Positions 48,024 to 51,327 of a stretch of DNA of 64,000 nucleotides are shown in pieces. The stretch's first letter is position 1, and each line of letters opens with the position of its first letter. The notes beneath the pieces are model-generated. The model saw nothing but the letters and a program-made list of their open reading frames with translations. It was not told the origin of the DNA and searched no databases. The DNA lies in assembly GCA_016185945.1 (NCBI GenBank), contig JACPMR010000012.1, positions 1 through 64,000 on the forward strand, given 5' to 3'. The position numbers and the translations under genes were made by a program. The stretch is from Candidatus Woesearchaeota archaeon (GTDB lineage: Archaea; Nanobdellota; Nanobdellia; Woesearchaeales; GW2011-AR4).

Positions 48024-48377
48024 TCATTCCTGAACATACTCTTCGCCTGCTGCAAGGCATATCTCAGCTTTTTTTAATTCTTTCCCGAGATAAGCGGCAT
48101 GGTCAAGCACCCTGAACCAGTTCTTGTTGTGCTCTTTGTTGTACTCGAATATCTCTGTGTACAAGTCCTGGGCTCTCTTGCCCCTGAATTCCTTCAAAAT
48201 CGTGTGATTGTAATCGCATATGCCTACGCCTATTTCTTTTGTATCTGGATAAATCCTTATCAAAACATAGCAGCCGGCATCTCCCCTGTAATCTCTATAG
48301 TCATCGTAGGGCTTTGCCTGTATCACTTCAAAATCAGTTGCCTTTTTCTGCGTTTTGAGCCATTTGGGGCGTTGCAT
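48024..48377 (-). CDS. DUF4346-like protein
   Basis: DAGCYVLIRIYPDTKEIGVGICDYN...HAAYLGKELKKAEICL. Confidence 0.6.
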   Translation of the reverse strand: MQRPKWLKTQKKATDFEVIQAKPYDDYRDYRGDAGCYVLIRIYPDTKEIGVGICDYNHTILKEFRGKRAQDLYTEIFEYNKEHNKNWFRVLDHAAYLGKELKKAEICLAAGEEYVQE

Positions 48378-48520
48378 AACAAATGAATGAATTGTTTGGG
48401 TATTTAAAATGGTTTTTGTTTTTAAAAACAGAAAAACACGACATCAATAAAATACAATTTCAGTTATGACCAAAAGATTTAAATATAAGATAAATCTTAC
48501 CTATCTTATTAACAAGATAG

Positions 48521-48790
48521 GTGAGGAAAATGGAAACAATAATCGAAATGGGAAAAATAAGCTCAAGAGGGCAGATTTCGATACCTGCCGACATTAGAGA
48601 ACGGTTGGGGTTAGAGGAAGGAACAAAAGTATTGTTCTTTGCAGAAGAGGATACTTTATTGATGAAAAAAGTAACTGAGCAGAGCTTTGCAGAGATAACA
48701 AAACCGCTGAAACTGGCTGCAAAGCAGGCTGGAATGAAAGAAAAAGATGTTCCAGCTATGATTCAAAGGTTTAGGAATAAGAGAAGATGA
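48521..48790 (+). CDS. AbrB/SpoVT-type antitoxin (VapB-like)
   Basis: GKISSRGQISIPADIRERLGLEEGTKVLFFAEEDTLLMKK. Confidence 0.88.
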   Translation: MRKMETIIEMGKISSRGQISIPADIRERLGLEEGTKVLFFAEEDTLLMKKVTEQSFAEITKPLKLAAKQAGMKEKDVPAMIQRFRNKRR

Positions 48791-49200
48791 AAATAACTGC
48801 GGATACAAATACACTAATATCGGCTACTTTTTGGCATGGTGCTTCTGACAAGATAATTTCGAAAGCTGAAATAAAGGTGATAGAACTTGTGCTATCAGAT
48901 GATATTCTCAAGGAATATAGCGAAGTGTTGAATTATGAAGAGATTCAAAATAAGATCAAGGATAAGAAATTGGAGATGCAAAGAACCTTAGGAAAGATTA
49001 TTTCAATGTCAACATTGGTTGTGCCAAAAGAGAAATTGAACATAATAAAGGATGATCCCGATGACAATGCCATTCTGGAATGTGCAATAGCTGGAAATGT
49101 TGACTGCATCGTCAGCAATGATAAGCACTTATTGAAAATCAAAAAATTTCAAAATATTCCAATACTAACTCCAGACGATTTTGTAGAAAAATATTTATAG
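48787..49200 (+). CDS. PIN-domain toxin (VapC-like)
   Basis: TADTNTLISATFWHGASDKII ... DPDDNAILECAIAGNVDCIVSNDKHLL; 4-nt overlap with antitoxin. Confidence 0.9.
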   Translation: MKITADTNTLISATFWHGASDKIISKAEIKVIELVLSDDILKEYSEVLNYEEIQNKIKDKKLEMQRTLGKIISMSTLVVPKEKLNIIKDDPDDNAILECAIAGNVDCIVSNDKHLLKIKKFQNIPILTPDDFVEKYL

Positions 49201-49364
49201 ACGGTTACTTCTTTGCACAAAAATGATCGCCTGTTAGTACTGATGCACTACACGCTTACCTACCGATGAAAGTTAGGTAATAGTTTGGAACCACAAAGGC
49301 AAAAGGCGAGCCGATAAGATTCCAAACAAGGCACACAATTTTTTCTCTGTTCCTACTAATGTGA

Positions 49365-50006
49365 TATGCGTTAGCGCAGGGTAATCCTTACAAGTATGTT
49401 GACCCGACAGGTCACATTTTCGGCGGAGCAGAAATAACTATTGGTGAACAAATCCTTATTGGAAGCACAACAGTTGTAGGTTTGACAACTGGAATTGGCT
49501 TGCTTGTTGTTGGTGGATTTGCTGTTAGTCTTCTCATAATTGCGCTTTCTGATAAAAGTGCAAATAATGTTGTTAGCTCAACTAATTTACCAGCTAGTGA
49601 TAATGCCAACAAAGCAGCCGAAATTAATGTACAGGAAGCACCAACAAAAAACCCCGATAATCAAGAGGGACAAGATGAGAGTAGAGGGTTGAATAAAAAA
49701 GAGCAAAATTCTATAGATAAAGTTGACAATATTATTAAAGATCATCTTACAAAACAAGATTTAGAAGGTGCAGCAAAAGATTTGACAGGAAGAGGTTCGG
49801 GAAGAAATCCAAAGACTGGTAAACCATATGACCATTTAAAAGAAGTAAAACAAGCCCAGAAGGGATTAGAAAAGCAAATAAAGCAGTTGATAAAACAATT
49901 ACAAGATAAAAAACTAAGTAAACAAGCTAGAAGAGCTTTAGAGGATGCTCTTGCAAGAGCAAAAAAAGCCCTAGAAGCTAGTAGAGAATATGTTCCCGAA
50001 GAATAA
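49365..50006 (+). pseudogene. RHS-repeat-associated polymorphic toxin C-terminal tip with Ntox28-like RNase domain (5' truncated)
   Basis: YALAQGNPYKYVDPTGHIFGG core signature, two hydrophobic segments, then NSIDKVDNIIKDHLTKQDLEGAAKDLTGRGSGRNPKTGKPYDHLKEVKQAQKGLEKQIKQLIKQL; TGA immediately upstream at 49362. Confidence 0.78.
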
Positions 50007-50018
50007 AAATTGTAGGAT

Positions 50019-50417
50019 ATGTTTAAGATGGTAAAATGGAAAAAGAAGGCATTGGAACTATTTCCTAATTTGAAGATAGAAATTAAAGAAGGGATATACT
50101 CTCTTTTTTTTGAGTTACTTCCAAGCGTTCGAGAAGCTCATAAGCAAAACAATAAAGATGAGTTAAATAAGATATATGGTTTTGCAGAATGGTGTTTTAA
50201 TCAAAAGTCACATTACTATTCTAATGCAGCTGCTGTAGCATTTTATGAACATCTTGTAGATAGAGACGATACAATAAAACATCTCCCCTATTGGGTAAAG
50301 CCTAATGATTTCAAAGATTTATTGGATTTGTTTAAATGGAGACTCGAGAAAAGCAAAAAGAAATACATAGAACTTGTGAATAATTATAATAAAGTTAACA
50401 AAACCAAATTCCATTAA
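50019..50417 (+). CDS. Putative immunity protein (DUF7674-like)
   Basis: Immediately 3' of toxin ORF; LFPNLKIEIKEGIYSLFFELL...IYGFAEWCFNQK...NAAAVAFYEHLVD. Confidence 0.65.
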   Translation: MFKMVKWKKKALELFPNLKIEIKEGIYSLFFELLPSVREAHKQNNKDELNKIYGFAEWCFNQKSHYYSNAAAVAFYEHLVDRDDTIKHLPYWVKPNDFKDLLDLFKWRLEKSKKKYIELVNNYNKVNKTKFH

Positions 50418-50470
50418 AACATAAAACTTGGAAATATAAAAAAAATGGTGATTAAATTTAACTTATTAAG

Positions 50471-50722
50471 ATGGATAAATTTTTTATTATTGTCTTCGCA
50501 GAAGAAAATAATCTACAATATGACGCTAATGGCAATCTAGTGACTGGAGATTCTTATTATAGAGAATACAACGAACTAAACCAGTTAGTTAGAATTAGAA
50601 ATGGAAATGTTTCTACAGGCCAAATTCTGGAAGAATTCACTTGGCATCCTACTGGAGAAAGAACACCGATTAGTCATTTGCTTAACACCCTTCATCACTT
50701 CCACCAGAAGCTTTTAGCTTAG
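50471..50722 (+). pseudogene. Orphan RHS/YD-repeat fragment
   Basis: LQYDANGNLVTGDSYYREYNELNQLVRIRNGNVSTGQILEEFTWHPTGERT then frame lost. Confidence 0.75.
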
Positions 50723-51146
50723 AACATAATTCCTTATTCTTTACATATAACCCGCTTACCTGCTCATTCGCTTCAATCAAGCTATTCTGAACCTGTTGGT
50801 ACATTGAATACAGTTTGTCAAACTTTGCTTTTTGGCTATTCAATTCTGATTTTAAAGCTTCCAACTCAGAGTGGATTCTTTCATTTTCTTGTCTTAACGC
50901 CTCATTCTCTGTTTTCAAGTCAAAGTATTGCTTTTCAATGGCTTCCTTGTCTTTCTGGAAAGTTTCCTTTAAATGCGATGTTTGGTTTAACTGCTCCAAG
51001 ACAACATTGCCAGAAGCTGCTTTAAGATTTTCATGGTCTTTAGAATATTCTACAGATATGTTCTTCAGCTTATTGTCATAGTAAGTGCTAAAGCTTAGGA
51101 AGGGTATTATAGGGATTATGGTTAGGAATAGTAATAGCTTATCCAC
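50682..51146 (-). CDS. Coiled-coil protein with N-terminal TM/signal
   Basis: LLLFLTIIPIIPFLSFSTYY then heptad-rich region. Confidence 0.65.
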   Translation of the reverse strand: MDKLLLFLTIIPIIPFLSFSTYYDNKLKNISVEYSKDHENLKAASGNVVLEQLNQTSHLKETFQKDKEAIEKQYFDLKTENEALRQENERIHSELEALKSELNSQKAKFDKLYSMYQQVQNSLIEANEQVSGLYVKNKELCSKLKASGGSDEGC

Positions 51147-51327
51147 ATCTTTTTTGAATATTTTGATGAGCTACCGCCCTTTAGGTTATTAGGTAAGGGC
51201 AAATATAAAAATTTAATGCAGCCAAATCTCCATCCAAAACCACAACCTTTAAATACTATTATTTAAAATAGTTTTTAAATTAAATTATTAAATATTAAAA
51301 ATACTATTAAAAATACTATTATCAACG

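Follow-up and report, generated by a model that had tools for sequence, protein, structure and literature searches.

Setting of the locus

Does an archaeon that carries an RHS-type toxin tip, an immunity gene and a further piece of RHS coding sequence hold a toxin cassette in waiting, or the remains of a toxin system that has decayed? Here we address this question for one locus in the window, by which we mean the whole stretch of 64,000 nucleotides analysed, bases 1-64000 of a 154 kb contig. The assembly amounts to 1.5 Mb in 24 contigs and is 90.7% complete. The window encodes aEF-2 (1037 bits), an archaeal GltX and an archaeal RqcH, and is therefore placed in the archaea; membership of a large, family-rich order with small genomes suggests a DPANN-like lineage.

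In three genomes of the same genus (G015, G017 and G006) blastn synteny and alignment show the site to be empty, with the DUF4346 gene (48024-48377 in the window) directly adjoining the AbrB-type gene (51328 in the window). We therefore identify the DNA between these two genes in the window as an insert of ~2.8 kb. Different genes occupy the site in G004, and both flanks of the insert are syntenic with same-genus genomes. The insert contains a vapBC pair, a stretch of 164 bp, RHS remnants and a gene for a coiled-coil protein, laid out as follows.

48445..51210, no strand: the ~2.8 kb insert, from the DUF4346 gene to the AbrB-type gene, by blastn synteny and empty-site alignment; edges approximate
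48521..48790, plus strand: AbrB/MazE-type antitoxin, vapB-like (PF04014, 1.5e-10)
48787..49200, plus strand: PIN_3 toxin, vapC-like (PF13470, 2e-17)
49201..49364, no strand: 164-bp single-copy stretch abutting the RHS junction, neither rRNA nor RHS remnant
49365..50006, plus strand: orphan RHS C-terminal tip, an open frame lacking both an ATG start and a signal peptide
49365..49415, plus strand: RHS-associated core end, YALAQGNPYKYVDPTGH, with PxxxxDPxG junction motif, aligned with the tips of relatives
49494..49550, plus strand: hydrophobic segment, candidate membrane span (19-residue mean hydropathy 2.56)
49692..49994, plus strand: Ntox28 domain (PF15605, PDB sequence match, Foldseek)
50019..50417, plus strand: DUF7674 protein of 132 aa, likely cognate immunity protein (PF24722), 12 nt after the toxin stop
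50471..50722, plus strand: ORF in which a second short secreted RHS gene starts (5′ part, core start to ~50665) and is then truncated
50682..51146, minus strand: membrane-anchored coiled-coil gene at the right island border, a family found beside RHS genes in G017, G007 and G008

A perfect TATA-like box was found upstream of the vapB-like gene in a TATA scan. The 164-bp stretch contains two inverted repeats (TTACCTA/TAGGTAA and TTTGGAA/TTCCAAA), matches nothing in Rfam, rRNA or relatives and shows no special fold. A suggestion made by eye, that it is a 23S rRNA remnant, was ruled out by Rfam and by direct comparison with the 23S of relatives. The coiled-coil family is genus-wide (18 of 20 same-genus genomes) and combines an N-terminal hydrophobic anchor, a coiled coil and a C-terminal Cys; its closest copies (L096:5364-5849, L043:4450-4941 and L097:4165-4650) adjoin RHS, vapBC or DUF2283 genes. 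Since copies in G017, G007 and G008 adjoin RHS genes, the RHS array and the coiled-coil gene probably moved together.

The orphan tip carries an Ntox28 domain

The tip frame, YALAQGNPYKYVDPTGH..., is open over 213 codons from 49365 to its stop at 50006. It follows directly on a stop at 49362-49364 and contains no ATG anywhere; the TTG at 49482 that was listed as its start is merely a mechanical one. The junction motif PYKYVDPTGH lies at the start of the fragment, within 49365-49415, and a six-frame scan of the window gave a single match to the core-end pattern NP.[KR][YF].DP[TSDN]G, against none in 20 shuffles. From the core end the tip runs through the hydrophobic segment and a polar linker into the Ntox28 domain. 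Thus the RHS core ending and the hydrophobic stretch behind it, both proposed in an earlier note on this DNA, were borne out by the junction motif, the alignment to relatives' tips and the hydropathy of 49494..49550.

The same note had suggested an Ntox28-like domain, and the Pfam search placed PF15605 well above its cut-off (E=2.5e-13; 50.5 bits against 25; profile positions 11-111 of 113). The only convincing PDB sequence relatives of the tip are the CdiA-CT entries of uropathogenic Escherichia coli 536 (5J5V and 5J43; best E=4e-7), whose active site is formed by D155, W176, H178 and E181 (PMC9086364). The equivalents in the window, given by first codon base, are D at 49758, Y in place of W at 49827, H at 49833 and E at 49842. 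D, H and E are thus identical (QDLEG, PYDHLKEV) and Tyr stands for Trp176; the family motif [DN]HxxE is likewise present. An AlphaFold2 model from single sequence reached a pLDDT of 87.3, and its top two Foldseek matches were 5j43_B and 5j5v_B (E 0.003 and 0.018; probability 1.00; TM 0.74 and 0.68 by target length), in agreement with the all-alpha fold of CdiA-CT 536. Sequence and model together suggest that the domain is probably a tRNA-cutting enzyme.

Unlike the E. coli toxin, the tip is RHS-borne rather than CdiA-borne, is archaeal and adjoins a DUF7674 gene as immunity candidate. Moreover, it lacks the C-terminal GxGI peptide through which the E. coli 536 toxin docks on CysK (PMC9086364), ending instead in EYVPEE, and CysK dependence is therefore not expected. 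A CysK-independent Ntox28 toxin is known: Tox28 of Ruminococcus lactaris (PMC9086364), a bacterial tRNase, is described as needing no CysK, which is what we predict for the tip.

No further Ntox28 above cut-off turned up in the phylum sample (382 genomes) or in the order (362), and the tip was thus probably acquired from outside. Two scans of GTDB representatives gave no close homologue of the tip. Viral contigs held no match for the toxin or the immunity protein, phages gave none, and plasmids gave only an Ntox28 fragment of Rhizobium etli. A candidate in G516 was dropped, being below cut-off and without the DHxxE motif. The lack of another Ntox28 above cut-off in the order and phylum samples, together with a 2012 survey that listed Ntox28 solely from bacteria (PMC3482391), is what might be expected of bacterial contamination or an assembly chimera. 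However, the segment lies in the interior of a long contig with aEF-2, archaeal GltX and RqcH, its flanking genes are clearly archaeal and syntenic with the genus on both sides, same-genus families include both the 5′ RHS piece and the coiled-coil protein, and codon use is host-like. We consider contamination or a chimera very improbable; the archaeal assignment in the earlier note holds, and contamination, which it had named as a ground for refutation, does not apply. Host-like codon use also speaks against a very recent acquisition from a distant donor, with the caveat that the genes are short.

A candidate immunity gene follows the toxin

The gene 12 nt downstream encodes a DUF7674 protein well over the cut-off of PF24722 (E=2.6e-14; 53.7 bits against 27). 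The family named in the earlier note is thereby confirmed, as is a position suited to immunity; that the protein is the cognate immunity protein is likely, judged solely by this position. Only one further DUF7674 gene above cut-off turned up in 295 genomes of the order, in G102, with neither RHS nor toxin beside it, and the pairing with Ntox28 was seen nowhere else in these genomes. A fold search with the immunity protein gave no match, the model being of low confidence, and PADLOC reported nothing for the RHS or immunity genes.

The open frame, the hydrophobic segment near its beginning and the closeness of the immunity gene would also suit a different arrangement, in which a 174-aa product from TTG 49482, comprising the membrane segment and Ntox28, would form a membrane-linked toxin-antitoxin pair with co-expressed DUF7674. 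However, TTG is the only start on offer, and no TATA-like box lies 18-45 nt upstream. Moreover, the G007 tip (L096:16-834) likewise has a hydrophobic segment after its core end, so that the segment belongs to the design of RHS tips. We therefore think such a pair improbable.

A second RHS gene begins downstream

The piece at 50471 matches part of an intact gene in G007, a genome of the same genus (L096:1362-1556), with 64.6% over 65 aa in tblastn (E=7e-26), and the Pfam RHS_repeat profile PF05593 below its cut-off (E=0.024; 15.5 bits against 22). That G007 gene (L096:1293-2618, 441 aa) begins with a signal peptide, followed by the core start shared with the window; we therefore interpret the piece as the opening part of a second RHS gene of this short secreted type. 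RHS similarity ends at ~50665 and the coiled-coil gene follows. A displaced RHS repeat piece had been suggested here; the RHS homology stands through G007, but rather than a displaced tip it is a 5′ gene start cut by deletion. The hydrophobic start of the piece (MDKFFIIVFA) is much shorter than that of relatives in alignment, and the signal peptide of this second gene may thus be damaged too.

Intact arrays in relatives

An intact array is found in G007 (L096:1-5849). It consists of a toxin tip, a membrane immunity candidate, the complete short secreted RHS gene and a second immunity candidate, and further holds RHS fragments, a DUF2283 gene and a transposase remnant. The complete RHS gene has a lipase-like tip just below cut-off (PF01764, E=2e-4). 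The components of this array match those in the window, with the same flanking coiled-coil gene. A perfect TTTAAATA box lies 30 nt upstream of the ATG in both presumed immunity genes.

Short secreted RHS genes of the order (G007 L096:1293-2618; G008 L044:1164-2495; the G076 array L049) share the core and the junction motif with the window; in contrast to it, they are complete, carrying a signal peptide and toxin domains of other kinds. In G007 the toxin and the gene behind it also stand in the order seen in the window, with the same coiled-coil gene alongside. In G076 (L049:3547-14143) two large RHS frames are followed by a tandem row of six short secreted RHS genes (~350-410 aa) whose tips differ, with little or no space left for separate immunity genes. 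A main RHS locus in G017 (L043:7462-12266) combines SpvB, FG-GAP and TcdB_midN with RHS repeats and is divided among overlapping frames.

The TIGR03696 profile matched in 51 of 295 genomes of the order at E<=0.01, and in 45 of them over cut-off. The majority (89/112) of the RHS core matches over cut-off that were counted lie in open frames of 250-600 aa, with 14/112 in longer frames. Almost every complete short gene at the loci inspected has a signal-peptide-like start (by eye), a core of ~120 or 225 aa and a variable toxin of ~180-250 aa; single-core proteins of this size would be too short for the usual RHS cocoon. We do not claim these short archaeal RHS genes as previously undescribed. A 2019 review notes colicin-D-type systems (PMC6393860), and Methanosarcina acetivorans has RHS polymorphic toxins with cassettes (PMC3482391) that are alike by description, although those are stalked, full-length and in a methanogen.

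A probable remnant rather than a cassette

Taken together, these data lead us to propose that a tandem array of short secreted RHS toxins, on a small island with vapBC and the coiled-coil gene, has eroded at this locus to a remnant in which the toxin is most likely silent and the immunity gene may still be read. We put the probability of this reading at roughly 0.7. What remains would be the 3′ end of one toxin gene with its DUF7674 immunity gene, plus the 5′ end of the toxin gene behind it. In G007, which shows the intact state, a gene codes for a signal peptide and a single core of ~225 aa that leads into a variable toxin of ~200 aa; an immunity gene comes next.

The layout is that of bacterial orphan rhs-CT/rhsI and cdiA-CT/cdiI modules (PMC3150448), in which a toxin fragment with a junction motif and without start signals is followed by an immunity gene. 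The earlier note's description of an orphan module is upheld by the junction motif, the missing start signals and the DUF7674 gene close behind. Such a layout, the open toxin frame and the presence of main RHS genes in same-genus G017 and, partly, G008 would also fit a live silent cassette, in which tip and immunity gene are kept as a reservoir that exchanges the toxin of a main RHS gene by recombination across the RHS core; the incompleteness of the assembly leaves room for such a recipient. However, the search for a full-length RHS gene elsewhere in the genome, proposed in the earlier note, found none in the 90.7% complete assembly, nor any other RHS core (Rhs_assc_core) or second copy of the segment. 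This absence of a full-length recipient sets the window apart from the bacterial modules, as does the 5′ start of a second gene. Moreover, merely 51 nt of core homology are left upstream, and both outer edges of the RHS remnants pass straight into non-RHS DNA, which is more in keeping with deletion than with a cassette bordered by recombination homology. TATA-like boxes are also missing before the tip and immunity gene of the window, where even the best candidate has 4 mismatches; at random places a perfect box turns up 1% of the time. We therefore favour a remnant, given the lack of an RHS core elsewhere, the non-RHS edges and the loss of 5′ ends and promoters; of the two readings left standing by the earlier note, decay is the better supported and a cassette is unlikely.

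Against erosion speaks that the tip frame is fully open and its active site intact. Either decay of the toxin is recent or the toxin is still selected. That DUF7674 was seen paired with Ntox28 in no other genome also weighs against the proposed reading.

If the Ntox28 domain is made and delivered, it would cut tRNA inside a neighbour; the producer itself would be protected by DUF7674, which would bind the toxin and block it. In the eroded locus the toxin would be silent, with neither start, signal nor promoter, and the vapBC promoter could drive read-through into the immunity gene. An immunity protein made in this way may guard against kin with the same toxin. In the orphan module of E. coli EC93 the toxin fragment is apparently not made whereas the immunity protein is (PMC3150448).

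The window holds the sole Ntox28 toxin above cut-off in the samples of its archaeal order and phylum that were searched. More broadly, polymorphic toxins in archaea were called rare in a survey of 2012 (PMC3482391), yet 45 of 295 genomes of this order have RHS cores above cut-off. We tentatively suggest, as a possibility well short of an established view, that this DPANN-like order has a major standing class of weapons in short secreted single-core RHS toxins, arranged in tandem arrays of which some have immunity genes under their own promoters, and that a bacterial-type tRNase tip circulates among them. The intact G007 array offers a clean system in which to test whether tiny archaea fight their neighbours with secreted toxins.
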